A DNA stretch of 32,711 bases from contig DUZD01000003.1 of NCBI GenBank assembly GCA_013349695.1, positions 1 to 32,711 of the forward strand. The letters are read 5' to 3'. The notes below the pieces were generated by a model, which was given only the letters and a program-made list of their open reading frames with translations, was not told where the DNA came from and searched no databases. Both the position numbers and the translations under genes were made by a program. Shown here piece by piece: positions 1 through 32,711 of this stretch (positions within the stretch are counted from its first letter, which is position 1; every line of letters starts with the position of its first letter). This DNA comes from Rhodospirillaceae bacterium. GTDB lineage: Bacteria; Pseudomonadota; Alphaproteobacteria; Rhodospirillales; 2-02-FULL-58-16.

Positions 1-117
1 TCTCCCGGGGCGTCGAGAACGCTTGACGATGTACCCGCATCGCCGGCGCGTCCGCTCCTACCGGGAGAGCGGGAAAAGCGATCGTATGGGGTCAGGAATC
101 CCGCCGGGGTGTACTAG
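1..117 (-). repeat. Partial copy of a structured inverted-repeat element
   Basis: Positions 1-86 align without gaps to the reverse complement of 32325-32410, inside the complete element at 32293-32564, with 71 of 86 identical bases by my count. The first 8 bases and 61-68 form a perfect inverted repeat that corresponds to a stem in the complete copy. Positions 70-86 are identical to the complete copy. Beyond 86 similarity fades, but the sequence again ends in CTAG (114-117), as the complete element does. The copy is cut off by the window edge, so its full length is unknown. Its terminal CTAG overlaps the stop codon of the neighbouring small gene. Confidence 0.75.
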
Positions 118-23054: not shown

Positions 23055-24221
23055 TTAGGGCACGTAACAAAACAATTGAATCGTATTGCCTCGGTCTGTC
23101 GGTGAGGGGTTCCGCATCCTTCGGGTATGCACTATATTTGGTATATGCAGGACACGGAAGGCATCAGGTATCGTTACGAGGCGCTTTATCCGCACCTTGA
23201 CGAGAAGGCACGGCGGCTCTTTGCCGCCGCGGAGGCGCGGACGGTGGGATGGGGCGAGATCAAGCTGGTATGCGAGATCACAGGGATTGCCCGCTCGACG
23301 ATCGGGCGCGGTCTTGATGAACTTGACGGCAAGACGGAGTCGCTCGGGGAAGGGCGGGTTCGGCGTCGCGGCGGTGGCCGCAAGCTGGAGACGGAGAAGC
23401 AACCGAGTTTGCTGGGAGCCCTTGAGAGCCTTGTCGCGCCAGCCACGCGCGGCGATCCGGAAAGGCCGTTGCCTTGGGTTTCAAAAAGCTATCGGCACCT
23501 TGCGAACGGCTTGAGGGAGCTTGGTTTTTCGGTCAGCCACCAACTGGTGGGGCGGCTCCTTGATCGGCTAGGCTACACTCTTCAGGCGAACGTGAAGAGG
23601 CGAGAAGGAACCCATCATCCCGACCGGGACGGCCAATTCGAGCACATCAACGGCCGGGTAACGGATTTCCTGGCCGCCGGGCAGCCGGTGATCTCGGTGG
23701 ACACGAAGAAGAAGGAACTGGTGGGCGACTTCAAGAACGGCGGGCGCGAGTGGCGACCGCAAGGCAAGCCCGAAGAGGTCAACGTGCATGACTTCGCCGA
23801 CAAGAAGCTTGGCAAGGTGGCGCCCTACGGCGGCTCCAACGGAGCCCGGGTCCGGCTATGGAAGGTCGAACTGCAAAAGCTCGCCTCCGAATTGGGGCTT
23901 GAGATCATGGTTTGCTATCTGCCGCCCGGCACCAGCAAATGGAACCGCATCGAACACCGCCTGTTTTCGTTCATCAGCCAAAACTGGCGTGGCAAGCCGT
24001 TGCGGACGCTCGCCACCATTGTCAACCTGATCGGCGCGACCACGACAAACACGGGACTCAAGGTCTATTGCGATGTGGACCATAACGCCTATCCCAAAGG
24101 TGTCGCCGTCAGCGATGATGAAATGACTGCCCTCAACATCCGACGCGCCGAATTCCATGGCCAATGGAACTACTCCTTCCTGCCCGCATAAACGAAGCAG
24201 TTTTTTTGTTACGTGCCCTAA
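23055..24221 (+). mobile_element. ISAzo13-type insertion sequence
   Basis: Terminal inverted repeats of 18 bp, perfect: TTAGGGCACGTAACAAAA (23055-23072) and its reverse complement at 24204-24221. Part of the outer TTA may be target sequence; TA flanks both ends and could be a TA duplication. One transposase gene fills the interior. The insertion lies between the reductase and enoyl-CoA hydratase genes. The 122 bp to its left contain GGTGACAGCATACTAATTTC, which looks like debris of another repeat. The right flank carries GATGCG-A-CGCATC and no gene. Confidence 0.9.
23127..24191 (+). pseudogene. ISAzo13-family transposase with internal deletion
   Basis: A 354-aa open frame. The family members I know are roughly 400 aa. 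The N-terminal helix-turn-helix region (EKARRLFAAAEAR to RVRRRGGGRK) and the first catalytic Asp192 (VISVDTKKKELVG) are present, as is the Glu276 motif (GTSKWNRIEHRLFSFI). Between them KVAPYG (to residue 235) joins directly to GSNG (from 236). The family normally has about 50 more residues here, ending in the ADGGGSNG motif that holds the second catalytic Asp. The frame stays open, but the protein should be catalytically dead. The start may be the ATG at 23127 or at 23145. Confidence 0.85.
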
Positions 24222-27597: not shown

Positions 27598-27633
27598 TCG
27601 GCGGCCAACTGATCAACGGTCTGGGTCGCCGTC
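27598..27633. repeat. Direct repeat copy A, at the 3' end of the TIR-CHAT gene
   Basis: These 36 bases match 32140-32175 at 31 positions, in the same orientation. It covers the last codons and stop of the TIR-CHAT gene. The other copy lies just upstream of that gene, so the pair brackets it. Confidence 0.6.
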
Positions 27634-30600
27634 GCGGATGGACTCGGCCAGGGCGTCGAGGATTTCCCGGAGCTTCGCCGGCAGGGCGCCGGGAACCGGG
27701 GGCGGGGGCTTGCCGTCGGCGACGGCGCGGAGGAAGGCGCCGACGGCGTCCAGGGGCGCCGGGTAGTCCGCCAGTCGGGCGAGGGCCTCGGCCGCGTCGG
27801 GCGGCAGGGCGCCGCCGCCACGGGCCTGGAAGGCCGCCTGGGCGAGGGCCAGGATCGCTTTCACCAGGTCGTCGGGCACGGCCCCGTCCTCGCCGCCACC
27901 CCGGCGTAGCCGCCCGATCTCCTCGACCTTGGTGTCATGCTTGGCTTGCCATTCGGCGGCGGCGGCGGTGTCGCCCCGGGCGCGGGCGATCTTGGCGAGG
28001 TTGCCGTAGTCCATGTATACGTCGGGGAGGCGGAGCGATTCGCAGATGGCGAGCGATTCGCGGGCGTTCCGCTCGGCCTCGTCCAGTTCGCCCAGCATGC
28101 GGTGGAGAACGCCGAGTTGAAAATGGGATTTCGCCGCGCCGGGGCGGTCGTTCATTTCCAGCACTATCGCCAAGCTTTCCCTTATGGAGTCGACCGCCCG
28201 GCGAAGCCAGGCCTCGCGCTCCCCAGGGTCCTTTGTCTGCTCGGCGCGATTCTGGTGAAGTATGCCGACATTGTGGGCGTTGGCGGCCAGTTGCCGCCGG
28301 TCATTGAGGCGCTTCGCCAGTTCCCGTGCGCGCCCATACCAGGCCTCCGCCACATCAAGCTGTCCGCGTTGCGCCTCCGCGTTGGCCAGCAAGTCGGCGG
28401 TTTGCATCTCTCCACCCGCATCGTCGGCCCGACGGAAGAACTCCAGCGCCTGCTGGTAGAGCGCGACGGCGCGGTCGAAGCGACCCTGCGCGCCGTGCAA
28501 GATTCCCTGGTGCTGAAGGAACGTCCCCTGTAGTTCGAGGTCGCCCGCGTCCCGGGCGGCGGCAAGCGCCTCGGTGTAGCGGGCATCGGCCTCCGCGTAA
28601 CGCTGCAGCCTTGTCAGGATGGTGGCTGCTCGTCCCAGACCGGCAGCCACCTCCCGGTCGTGGCCGAGGTCGCGTCTGATGGCGAGGCCGCGCTCGGAAG
28701 CCTCCAGGGCTTCATCGAAGCGCCCCAATTCCATCAGCGCGTTGGCGAGGTCGCCCAGGGCGGCCGCGAGATTGCCGCGCTGGGCCTCGCCGAGGCCTTC
28801 GAATTGGGCGATGGCCCTCCCGAGCGGCTCGAGCGCCCGGTCCGGGCGGCCATGGGAGTCAAGCAACCGGCCCAGATAAAGTTGGCTCAGCGCCAACTGT
28901 AACGCCGGATCCGCGCTGTCCGCCAGGCCTTCGTCCGCGAGCCTGCGAATCAGATCCTCCAGGGTGGCGATGGCCTCGTCCCCATGGCCCTGGGTGAAGC
29001 GGCTCCAGGCATGGTCCCGAATCGCCGCGCAGGCGGCCCCGTCCAGCGTCTCGTCCACCGGCATCCGCTCCCGCACCCAGGCCACCACTTCGTCCCGTTC
29101 GCGAGGCCGCCCGGCCATTTGCAGGAATGTCCGCAACGTGCCGGCCAACGCCTGACCCTCGGACCGGCCGCCACGCCGGAAGGCCCGGCGGATGGCGGCG
29201 CGGTAGTTGGCTTCCTCCAGGCTCATGCTCAGCATCGCGGCGGCGGGCTGGCCGCCCCGGAGCGCCTTGTCGGTCGCCCGCATATCGGCGAGGTAGACTC
29301 CGATGAAGCGCTTCTCGGTGGCCTCCGGGTCCGCAACGTCGGCCGCCCGGGCGGCGTGGGGCAGGGTCGGATGGAAGCGCAGAAAGGGGGTCGAAAAAAC
29401 CTCGACGGTCTCCACCCGCACCAAGGCCGTCGCCACCAGTTCCGCCCGCGTCGCTTCCCACGCCTCCGGGTCCAACTCCGCGAAAATGATGAACAACCCT
29501 TCGAACACACCGCCCCGGAACCAAGCGAGATAGGGCAGCGCCGCCTGGGCGGCCTCGCTGAGCCGGCGTTTGGAGAAGGCGAGCGAGGCAAGCAGCGACC
29601 TGTTGCGGCCCTCCGCCGCCGCCGCGTCGGCGAATTCCTCCAGCGGTTCGCCGAACTCTTCGCGGATTCGGTCCGGCGTCCGCGCCTTCAAATGGGGGGC
29701 GACCAGGGCGATGGAGAGGGGATGGTCGGCGAGGGCGTCGAGTAGCCGTTCCACCCGTTCCCGCTCGTAGCCCGGGCGGCCGGTGTCGATGGACTTGGCG
29801 TCGAGCACGGCGGCCAGCAGGTGCAGGCTGTCGGGGCGGGCGAGGCCCTCCAGGGCCACCTCCTTGATGGCGGGGAGCTCTGTTTCCTCCGGACGGCAGG
29901 TCACCAGCAAGCGGCCGAGGGGGGCGCCGTCGGTGAGGTCCCGGTAGAGCCGCGCCAGCCCTTGGCGCGCCTCGGCCGTGTAGACGCCCAGGCCGTCCGT
30001 GCCGCCGTCCGCCGCCTCTTCCCCTTCCTGGAACGCCGGCAGGGTGGATTCGAAGTTGTCCCAGACCAGCAAGACCCGGCGGGTCCTGAACAGCGCCACC
30101 GCCTGGCGCCATTGCTCCTCTTGCGGCAGCGCCGCGAAGCCTTCGTCCCCGAGGGCGGCGCCGATCCGCTGGGCCACCTGGTCCGCCCCCGCCCATTGTT
30201 CGAAGCTGACGAACACCGCCGCCTCGAAGCGGCCGGCGCGCAGCCACCACGCCGCCGCTTCCCGCGCCAGGGCCGTCTTGCCCATGCCCCCCATGGCGTG
30301 GAGCAGCACGGCGGGATGGTCGCGGAATTGCCGCTCCAGGGCCAGCAGTTCCCGAGCCCGTCCGTGGAAGCGGTACACCGGCGGCGGCGGAAATCCGTGA
30401 AGCCTTGCCGCCACGCCGGTCCGCGCCCACTCCCTTTCCGGTTCCGCCGCCGCGCCGGCGGTCAGCGCCGGGTCGTCTCCCACTTGGTAAAGCTGGGGAA
30501 TGAACCAGTCGTCCAGGTTCACCGTCTCGGCCTCGGGTCCCAGGTGCAGCCAGCGCGCCCGGTTTGCGTGCAAGGCCCGGCGGGCCTCGGCGAGGGCCTC

Positions 30601-32001
30601 GCCGACACTCATGCCGGCGGCCAACTCGCCATAGAAGCGCTCGACCAGCAGGCGCGCCGCCTCCACGTGCACCGAATGGCTGAAGGCGACGACGCTCCCG
30701 ACGCCGCTGTTGAGCAGGGCCGGCGCCACCGAGCCGAACACCGGCCGGTCGGCGAGGTCGGCGCTACGGCAAGCCTCCAGCAGCACCAGCGGCACGCCCT
30801 GTCTCACCATCAGGTCGCCGAGGCGGGGTCCCGCGATCAGGTCGGTAGTGGCCGCGCCGTCCTCGAAGGCCAGGGCGCCGACGCCGGTCCTCGGCAGATA
30901 GGTGCCGTGGCCGTCGAAATGGACGATATGGAAGGGCTTGCCGTTCTTGCGCGCCTCGGAAACCTGCTTCTCGAGCTGTCCGAAGGTGGGCGGCTCGCAG
31001 AATTCGAGATCAAGCTGGCCGGGACCCAGGGCCTCGAGGGCGTCGAGCATGGGCGCGATGCTGTCGCGCGGGTCGAGGAATCCGGTGTCGGTGGGCCGGC
31101 TGACGATCGACAGAACCCGGAGCGGCAGGCCAAGCTCGGGTGTTCGGGTCTCGCCGGACTCGCGAAGCTGGCGGCGGAGGCTTACCCCCTGGAAGGTCAA
31201 TGGGCGGTCCTCGGCGTCGCGCAGCATCTCCCAGGGCTGGCCGAGGACCTCGGCGTCGTCGCTGGCCAGCGTCAGCAGCACCGGCCGGCCGTGGGCGACG
31301 GCCTTGGCCAGGTCGCCATGAACCTCCCCACCGGTTCGGTTGTCGAACAGGGCCTCGAATAGTTCCCCGCCCCATCGTGAAAGACAGGACTCCAAACCCT
31401 TGGCGCGCACCCGGTCGCCGGCGCCGGGAAACTGCGGGTAGGTTTCCAGGTACCAACGAAGCTCCTCCAGGCCCTTGCCGTCGAGGGGCAGGGCAAGCTC
31501 GAATGGCGGTGCGTGCCAGCGGCCCATCGGCGCGCCGTCCTTGCTCTCGACCACGAGGCGGGCGTGATAGGGCGGGCGACGGATGCGCGCCCCAGCGGTG
31601 GGCGCGCCCACATGCTTCCGTATGGCCGTCAGCAGCTTCGTCAGCCCGGCGTCGTAGTCGTCCCTGAAATCGGCGTGGCTTTTGTCGCGCAGCAATCGCG
31701 GAATGTCGCAGTCCTCGATCAGGACCGGGACGATGTGAACCTTCCGGCTGGTGGCCTCGTCCGCGATATGGGCCTGCCACTCCTTCTCCACCCAGCCCGA
31801 CCGGACACTTTTCCGGGACAGCACAAGAACGAGAAGGTCCGAGTCATCGAGCCCCAATTGGATGTTTTGCGCGATGGAATCGCCCGGCAGAATTTCGTCG
31901 TCGTCGAGCCAAACGCCGATGCCTTCCGCCTTCAGATCATCGGCGAGGCGCGTGACGAGCAACTTGTCGCTGCTGGAGTGAGAGAGAAAGACTCTGGGCA
32001 T
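27613..32001 (-). CDS. TIR-CHAT-STAND-TPR protein, candidate immune effector
   Basis: A 1462-aa cytoplasmic protein. Residues 1-130 are a TIR domain (VFLSHSSSDK, VWLDDDEILPGDS) with a candidate catalytic Glu74 in SGWVEKEW. Residues ~290-505 are a CHAT caspase-like protease with His365 (HFDGHGTY) and Cys411 (LLEACRSA); 145-290 is probably its N-terminal part. Residues ~545-830 are an NB-ARC-type STAND ATPase: Walker A GGMGKT (571-576), Walker B VLLVWDNFE (Asp648), sensor LLVTCRPEE. A helical linker precedes about nine TPR-like units (992-1360), one interrupted near 1253-1265. A proline-rich C-terminal module (1371-1456) is unassigned. A likely job is sensing through the TPRs, ATP-driven assembly, then NAD cleavage and/or proteolysis. 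The GGGGGAAGGG run before the ATG at 32001 is the likely ribosome binding site. It stands alone, flanked by mobile debris. Confidence 0.93.
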   Translation of the reverse strand: MPRVFLSHSSSDKLLVTRLADDLKAEGIGVWLDDDEILPGDSIAQNIQLGLDDSDLLVLVLSRKSVRSGWVEKEWQAHIADEATSRKVHIVPVLIEDCDIPRLLRDKSHADFRDDYDAGLTKLLTAIRKHVGAPTAGARIRRPPYHARLVVESKDGAPMGRWHAPPFELALPLDGKGLEELRWYLETYPQFPGAGDRVRAKGLESCLSRWGGELFEALFDNRTGGEVHGDLAKAVAHGRPVLLTLASDDAEVLGQPWEMLRDAEDRPLTFQGVSLRRQLRESGETRTPELGLPLRVLSIVSRPTDTGFLDPRDSIAPMLDALEALGPGQLDLEFCEPPTFGQLEKQVSEARKNGKPFHIVHFDGHGTYLPRTGVGALAFEDGAATTDLIAGPRLGDLMVRQGVPLVLLEACRSADLADRPVFGSVAPALLNSGVGSVVAFSHSVHVEAARLLVERFYGELAAGMSVGEALAEARRALHANRARWLHLGPEAETVNLDDWFIPQLYQVGDDPALTAGAAAEPEREWARTGVAARLHGFPPPPVYRFHGRARELLALERQFRDHPAVLLHAMGGMGKTALAREAAAWWLRAGRFEAAVFVSFEQWAGADQVAQRIGAALGDEGFAALPQEEQWRQAVALFRTRRVLLVWDNFESTLPAFQEGEEAADGGTDGLGVYTAEARQGLARLYRDLTDGAPLGRLLVTCRPEETELPAIKEVALEGLARPDSLHLLAAVLDAKSIDTGRPGYERERVERLLDALADHPLSIALVAPHLKARTPDRIREEFGEPLEEFADAAAAEGRNRSLLASLAFSKRRLSEAAQAALPYLAWFRGGVFEGLFIIFAELDPEAWEATRAELVATALVRVETVEVFSTPFLRFHPTLPHAARAADVADPEATEKRFIGVYLADMRATDKALRGGQPAAAMLSMSLEEANYRAAIRRAFRRGGRSEGQALAGTLRTFLQMAGRPRERDEVVAWVRERMPVDETLDGAACAAIRDHAWSRFTQGHGDEAIATLEDLIRRLADEGLADSADPALQLALSQLYLGRLLDSHGRPDRALEPLGRAIAQFEGLGEAQRGNLAAALGDLANALMELGRFDEALEASERGLAIRRDLGHDREVAAGLGRAATILTRLQRYAEADARYTEALAAARDAGDLELQGTFLQHQGILHGAQGRFDRAVALYQQALEFFRRADDAGGEMQTADLLANAEAQRGQLDVAEAWYGRARELAKRLNDRRQLAANAHNVGILHQNRAEQTKDPGEREAWLRRAVDSIRESLAIVLEMNDRPGAAKSHFQLGVLHRMLGELDEAERNARESLAICESLRLPDVYMDYGNLAKIARARGDTAAAAEWQAKHDTKVEEIGRLRRGGGEDGAVPDDLVKAILALAQAAFQARGGGALPPDAAEALARLADYPAPLDAVGAFLRAVADGKPPPPVPGALPAKLREILDALAESIRDGDPDR

Positions 32002-32292: not shown

Positions 32293-32564
32293 TCTAGTGG
32301 CCCGCGTCAGCCAAATTGCACCCCTACGATCGCTTTTCCCGTTTCCTCGGCAGAAGGGGGCGCGCAGGCGATGCAGGGACATCGTCAAGCGTTCCCGACG
32401 CCCCGAGGGGACGGGAAAAGCGACCCTTCGGGCGGTCTTGCGAGGCTTCCAGACGTCGTCGCGTGCCGCTTGTGGTGCACAGACACCACGGCGCAACGCG
32501 CTCCTAGCCGGAAACCTCGCAAGACCGTCGTAGGGGTGCAATTTGGCTGACGCGGGCCACTAGA
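32293..32564. mobile_element. 272-bp folded element with 37-bp perfect terminal inverted repeats
   Basis: 32293-32329 is the exact reverse complement of 32528-32564 (outer end TCTAGTGGCCCGCG). The interior folds into two further arms. The first is closed by CGCTTTTCCCGT/ACGGGAAAAGCG (32331-32342, 32411-32422), with CCTCGG/CCGAGG inside. The second is closed by 13 perfect pairs (32433-32445, 32515-32527), with GTGGTG/CACCAC inside. The whole is T-shaped. No gene is visible within. CTAG occurs at both outer ends and could be a 4-bp target duplication. A partial second copy lies at 1-117. Confidence 0.85.
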
Positions 32565-32711
32565 ACGTCAATGCCTACGACAGCCGGCTGAAGGGATGGG
32601 TGCAAAGGTTCAACGGAGTGGCGACCAGATACCTGGACAGCTATCTGGGTTGGCGACGGTTCTTTGAGCGTCATAAGGAAGAGGCGACCAATCCAAAATC
32701 ATGGTTGATCG
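32564..32711 (+). pseudogene. IS1595/ISXO2-type transposase, C-terminal remnant
   Basis: An open frame to the window end encodes about 49 residues including [11 protein letters not shown] and [17 protein letters not shown], the conserved C-terminal part of IS1595-family (ISXO2-like) DDE transposases. The 5' part of the gene is missing: the frame begins exactly where the 272-bp element ends, and the preceding in-frame codon is TAG. The 3' end is outside the window. Confidence 0.8.

Follow-up and report, generated by a model that had tools for sequence, protein, structure and literature searches.

Several small repeats of bacterial genomes lie close to the element described here. The RUP of Streptococcus pneumoniae is 107 bp long and has been proposed to be mobilised by IS630-Spn1 (PMC2229807), and IS630 itself is reported to prefer TA within CTAG (Tenzen and Ohtsubo 1991, as cited in PMC2170065). 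The Correia/NEMIS and ERIC/IRU repeats affect mRNA via its processing (PMC2229807), and the CGTC-tagged REPs combine an 8-9-bp stem and a 4-5-nt loop with the CGTC tag and a CCA-like tail (PMC3733652).

In most descriptions, bacterial MITEs are simple hairpins that remain from insertion sequences. The element that we studied in the window (the whole 32,711-nucleotide stretch of DNA that was analysed) is, in contrast, branched, and its strand-specific fold covaries non-canonically and recurs across a bacterial class. We regard it as almost certainly a non-autonomous MITE of the IS630/Tc1-mariner type. The family is undescribed in the literature that we searched, which omits most subscription journals, and it offers a natural test of whether the RNA of a mobile element, not its DNA ends, is kept by selection.

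Layout, copies and subfamilies

As in a MITE, the window copy has 36-bp terminal inverted repeats around 270 bp and is free of any transposase (Table 1). The earlier note, made from the letters alone, had described a T-shaped element with perfect 37-bp ends and two internal arms. The perfect inverted repeat and both arms are real, but the biological ends are 36 bp long, the flanking T/A probably pairing by chance, and the overall shape is not a T but a four-way junction formed by the outer stem, arm A, a mini-hairpin and arm B. Each arm consists of stems of 20-21 and about 8-9 bp with an internal loop between them; the mini-hairpin also occurs in a compensated variant, CCG...CGG, in copies L103, L105 and L106. 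Folded as single-stranded DNA, the window element reaches an energy 15.9 standard deviations below that of shuffled sequences (0/200). One ORF of 166 aa overlaps part of the element and is without a Pfam match.

Table 1. Coordinates of the element, its parts and the adjoining features in the window.
Feature	Position	Strand	Details
Second copy, subfamily 4 (ends CTAGTACACCCCGGCGGGATTCCTGACCCCATACGA)	1-117	-	truncated within arm A by the contig end
3' end of IS1595-family transposase gene (flank)	32564-32710	+	NCBIfam NF033547, E 1.1e-8, profile 177-214 of 215
Complete element, 270 bp, subfamily 1	32294-32563	+	arm A first; CTAG at each end
Left end CTAG	32294-32297		TA at 32295-32296, presumed target duplication (from empty sites of other copies in same-genus genome G001)
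Right end CTAG	32560-32563		TA at 32561-32562, presumed target duplication (from empty sites of other copies in G001)
Left terminal repeat, outer stem strand 1, 36 bp	32294-32329	+	perfect complement of 32528-32563
Arm A, 94 nt	32330-32423	own sense +	21-bp stem, internal loop, inner stem, apical hairpin; RNA fold, covariance model R1
Conserved internal loop, 5' side	32351-32356	+	CAGAAG here; family consensus (T/C)AGGAG
Conserved internal loop, 3' side	32397-32400	+	GACG; conservation of A90, C91 and G92, covariation of 43/89
Mini-hairpin CCC-TTC-GGG between arms A and B	32424-32432	+	pairing preserved by compensatory changes
Arm B, 95 nt, inverted homologue of arm A	32433-32527	own sense -	RNA fold; arm-A model matches B arms
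Right terminal repeat, outer stem strand 2	32528-32563	+	perfect complement of 32294-32329

The similarity of the left copy to the arm, also seen in the earlier note, holds (positions 6-90, 85% over 85 bases, E 7.8e-21). That copy had been taken for a partial element; base 1 is the end of the contig, and the copy is cut there. Its terminal repeat, which had seemed less well kept than the arm, differs because the copy belongs to another subfamily (CTAGTACACCCCGGCGGG...). In the 2.28-Mb, 255-contig draft genome, blastn with three queries recovered at least 24 complete copies, and by our tally about 37 contig ends lie inside further copies; the family explains many of the breaks between contigs in these MAGs. 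Copies range from 161 to 372 bp, the standard two-arm ones from 263 to 271 bp, and arms without an inserted hairpin from 94 to 96 nt. Variants include single-arm copies (L022, L032, L107, L109), copies with a third hairpin at one fixed place of arm A (L006, L011, L012, L025, L041) and one with the interior of arm A inverted (L010). Three two-arm elements of 326-380 bp (L122, L187, L233) carry GC-rich extra hairpins of the GGGGG...CCCCC type within an arm, the surrounding fold remaining intact. A separate palindromic repeat of about 93-113 bp (GAAATTCGGTGACAGCATACTTAATTC...) was observed at L002:2484-2593, L032:938-1032, L105:661-773 and L115:214-306.

At least eight end sequences are known, the majority starting with CTAGT and the remainder with ATACCAA. 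The ATACCAA end of copy L021 has an identity of 0.69 to that of L103 and 0.43 to that of L007; for its core, the identities are 0.84 to L007 and 0.69 to L103. Comparison of the sequences thus indicates that the core has exchanged ends between subfamilies, ends and cores having separate histories. One copy (L127) in G034, a genome from another family of the same order, shares 95% identity with the window element and points to recent transfer, unless that MAG is contaminated.

The IS1595-family fragment on the right directly abuts the element; its match is weak, partial and below the curated cut-off, with no Pfam match, and the 5' part of the gene was not seen on the element's other side. Either an insertion followed by rearrangement or a recombination between copies would account for this arrangement. 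To the left, at 27613-32001 on the minus strand, lies a gene for a 1462-aa protein with TIR, CHAT, NB-ARC-like and TPR regions. It matches PADLOC TIR defence models weakly to moderately and is a candidate for a role in anti-phage defence or signalling.

Mobility and the IS630 family

The only target bases common to the flanks of the copies are TA (in CTAG, TTAG, GTAG and CTAA). When the flanks of 12 copies were searched in nine genomes of the same family, seven sites (L029, L026, L012, L022, L007, L005, L006) were found empty in the same-genus genome G001. These sites, all of CTAG-type copies other than the window copy, are contiguous in G001 and, aligned to a model built with one TA, read as flanks with one TA or a mutated TA. 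The ATACCAA copy L021 is likewise absent from G001, where its site reads ambiguously as to a duplication. As the positions of the copies differ between genomes of the same genus, the family has moved recently.

The sole DDE_3 gene of the element's own genome belongs to the IS630 family by NCBIfam and is spread over two overlapping reading frames. The ends around it agree with element subfamily 5 at 27/28 bases on the right and 25/30 on the left, and this IS630 copy sits on the CTAG end of an element copy (L004). Another IS630, in G009, has ends matching subfamily 2 over the outer ~24 bases. The outer ~28 bases of the element thus match IS630-family ends in its own and a related genome, and a transposase with matching ends, for which the earlier note had proposed to look, does exist alongside the element. 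An IS630-type transposase would act on the element in trans, by cut and paste. Further IS630 copies were observed in relatives (L289 in G045, L281 in G034, L277 and L285 in G006), with other CTAG-starting ends, some of them resembling element subfamilies.

An insertion sequence with exactly the subfamily-1 ends of the window copy was not found, the nearest being that of subfamily 2, and none with ATACCAA ends was found either. DDE_3 went undetected in 7/15 element-bearing genomes, including G004 (92% complete, at least 64 model matches). Two ATACCAA-bounded stretches of 1.3-1.4 kb (L195, L231), considered as a possible autonomous partner, contain ordinary genes. The window holds an ISAzo13-family insertion sequence at 23055-24221, with imperfect ends (TAGGGCACGTAACAAAA...); its transposase (23127-24191) was rejected as mobiliser of the element, as those ends differ from the element's.

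Covariation, strand asymmetry and range of the arms

The two compensated pairs of the earlier note can be read directly from the letters: 32345/32408 is C-G against T-A at 3/66, and 32347/32406 is T-A against C-G at 5/64. Alone they are insufficient evidence, because template switching can homogenise inverted repeats. In 13 full copies, 98.2% of the cells are paired and 62/105 pairs have changes on both sides; none of 500 shuffles reaches any of the measures, and structures slid along the alignment pair 36-43%. With both-side changes in so many pairs, chance is excluded. The covariance model of arm A (R1), which is usable for annotating the family, gave 197 matches in 97 loci, of which we took the best 150, comprising 148 distinct arms. 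Among these best 150 of 197, 94.7% of the cells are paired, against 40-43% in the slid controls, and 37/40 pairs have changed on both sides; the covariation, which the earlier note had wanted followed in more copies, thus persists.

The same 148 arms (best 150 of 197) show where the sequence is constrained. Many columns of stem 1 carry 0.04-0.3 bits of sequence information, that is, they are nearly free, and the apical hairpin CGATG/CATCG is nearly invariant, as is much of the internal loop, both on its 5' side (A40 97%, G41 100%, G42 90%, A43 81%) and on its 3' side (A90 97%, C91 100%, G92 98%). Outside the drawn pairs, covariation is strongest at 43/89 (A.G with 29.8 and C.A with 6.7 effective sequences), which adjoins G42.A90, and we infer that the two together form a tandem purine loop of the sheared type. 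A kink-turn, with its similar TAG-GA / GA layout, was considered and rejected: the invariant G92 is without the required pairing into the outer stem. An intrinsic terminator was rejected as well, there being no U-run after the hairpins as read from the sequence.

For selection on the arm fold, the element brings its own control in the outer stem. In arm stems 1 and 2 of the best 150 of 197 matches, each read on its own strand, there are 369 G-U against 35 A-C cells, although the strands in this alignment were chosen by the covariance model, which biases the asymmetry upwards; a MAFFT alignment of the own-genome copies, independent of that model and with each arm in its own sense, gives 44 against 7. 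The outer stem, with 24 G-T against 31 A-C (p = 0.42), has no strand preference, even though 27/36 of its pairs have changes on both sides. Its covariation is therefore not evidence of folding, equally strong as it is. For the arms, three observations decide for selection on the fold: G-U outnumbers A-C roughly tenfold, bases outside the pairs are conserved, and A.G covaries with C.A. We consider it very probable that a single-stranded form of the arms is what selection sees. The earlier note's proposal of selection on the folded form in a non-autonomous element is thereby upheld for both arms.

Folding energies agree in direction. With RNA parameters, arm A of the window reaches -64.7 on the plus strand and -52.4 on the minus strand, and arm B -64.2 on the minus strand and -53.9 on the plus strand; with DNA parameters, these gaps are about 3. 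Among the best 150 of 197 matches, 138/146 arms fold better on their own strand with RNA parameters (mean gap 7.5 kcal/mol), as do 128/145 non-tied arms with DNA parameters (mean 2.7 kcal/mol); the choice of strand by the covariance model biases these gaps upwards. The outer stem behaves as a transposon end, and the arms like a nucleic acid that folds strand-specifically, RNA being the likelier form. Over a long time, nearly every base pair of the arms has been swapped and the fold kept, which points to a function of the fold, probably as RNA.

R1 matches occur in 34/60 relatives and in 28/289 genomes of the class, most of the genomes compared being fragmented MAGs. A draw from the phylum, in which the share from outside the class was unspecified, gave 3/299, all three Alphaproteobacteria. 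In distant genomes, too, plus and minus matches occur as pairs ~100 bp apart. The carriers that have names are MAGs of uncultured organisms, bearing the labels Rhodospirillales, Rhodospirillaceae, Kiloniellaceae, Alphaproteobacteria or Proteobacteria. Rfam 15 had no match above its gathering score in the window and, at a relaxed threshold over four loci, only a chance-level miRNA match (E 0.51); IMG/VR had no match to the element pattern, and plasmids no blastn match.

Possible roles of the arms and relation to known repeats

A crude gene caller placed genes on either side of 22 own-genome copies; these neighbours are co-directional for 16 copies, convergent for 3 and divergent for 3, and many copies are 0-30 bp from a gene end; some sit on a TAG stop codon, which the CTAG end restores. 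The orientation relative to co-directional genes is unbiased (8 to 6 by our tally). As the copies lie between closely spaced, mostly co-directional genes, they would be transcribed within mRNAs. The arms are inverted and the element would therefore be orientation-independent, a transcript from either side carrying one arm in its own sense. The folded RNA would present this sense arm on a long double-stranded stem and most likely set local mRNA processing or stability, or bind a host protein; either could explain why the insertions are tolerated. The account that we favour, and hold to be probable as a whole, is thus that of a MITE of the IS630 type which is read through into mRNAs, where its arms, as RNA, probably influence processing or stability. 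Of its parts, action as RNA rather than single-stranded DNA is fairly likely; an effect of the arms on mRNA, taken by itself, is a serious possibility of somewhat less than even standing. Still more tentatively, the core could be a distinct, old alphaproteobacterial RNA module that has its own structured loop of purines and is itself under selection; it would exchange terminal repeats to ride successive IS630-type (perhaps also other) transposases, its inverted pair working in either orientation.

The main competitor keeps the selected fold and places it in single-stranded DNA, the own-sense arm being extruded in replication, conjugation or repair and recognised by a DNA-binding or replication protein. 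Own-sense arms are slightly more stable with DNA parameters too (the 128/145 non-tied arms and 2.7 kcal/mol given above, best 150 of 197), G.T is better than A.C in DNA as well, and inverted arms put one own-sense arm on each strand. RNA parameters, however, give a strand preference about three times that under DNA parameters, and since IS630-type transposition cuts and pastes double-stranded DNA (PMC2170065), no known single-stranded step calls for the fold; we think this reading rather unlikely. We give only slightly less credit to an ordinary IS630 MITE with hairpins as passive ballast, in which the fold persists solely because misfolded copies harm neighbouring transcripts and are purged. 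Such ballast would need neither invariant unpaired loop bases nor a fixed arm length of 94-95 nt, much as it would suit the position of the copies close to gene ends and the stable stem-loops common in bacterial MITEs (PMC2229807, PMC10969869).

Two further explanations fare worse. The arms could be GTAG-tagged, REP-type hairpins served by RAYT tyrosine transposases and secondarily captured between IS630 ends: they have (G/C)(T/C)AG followed by GA, a stem and GAC, much as in GTAG-1/2 REPs the GTAG is followed by two additional bases (GW), a stem and a tail of 3 bp, and dimers of REPs inside long palindromes are described from A. variabilis (PMC3733652). Against this, the arms measure ~94 nt where REPs have 20-40, C and T are about equally frequent as second base of the tag, and the Y1 transposase is absent in 11/25 element-bearing genomes, among them the highest-copy G004, G008 and G009, which leaves the idea improbable. 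Least credible is that the covariation arose as template switching or gene conversion homogenised the inverted repeats, with the fold unselected. That process suits the outer stem, where both-side changes come without strand preference, but it predicts equal G-T and A-C mispairs and an eroded loop, and the arms (best 150 of 197) have 369 against 35, nearly invariant loop bases and non-canonical A.G/C.A covariation; as the only explanation, it is already contradicted for the arms.

An IS630-type MITE with arms that may act as RNA invites comparison with several described families. Like RUP, the element is a small, intergenic, non-coding repeat with ends resembling those of an IS630-family insertion sequence of the same genome and with a TA target; unlike RUP, it has two homologous inverted arms with a covarying fold, subfamily-specific ends and a class-wide range. 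With Correia/NEMIS and ERIC/IRU it shares TA termini and a stable transcript structure between genes (PMC2229807), but by description their stem-loop comes from the pairing of their own ends, whereas here a four-way junction carries two arms and admits extra hairpins. The CIR repeats of Caulobacter and Brucella are likewise alphaproteobacterial and have two long arms and a linker (PMC2229807); they also have a conserved GANTC at the loop and no closing outer stem, and membership was rejected, as GANTC is absent from the element's arms and an outer stem is present. REP dimers in palindromes, such as GTAG-15 of A. variabilis, resemble the element in that two tagged hairpins lie inside a long terminal palindrome starting with TA, with a GTAG-1/2-like tag, an extra GA and a 3' tail (PMC3733652). 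The element differs from them by arms of ~94 nt in place of 20-40, by the absence of RAYT from many hosts and by ends that match IS630. It was not assigned to the GTAG-tagged REPs, its tag being (G/C)(T/C)AG inside a ~94-nt arm and not GTAG beside a 20-40-bp palindrome, and RAYT (Y1) transposases being absent in those 11/25 genomes; nor was it assigned to the CGTC-tagged ones, since stems of 20-21 and about 8-9 bp split by an internal loop are a different architecture. Overall, the kind of mobile element is a known one; its unusual features are an elaborate fold that is strand-specific and class-wide, and a conserved core around which the ends have been exchanged.
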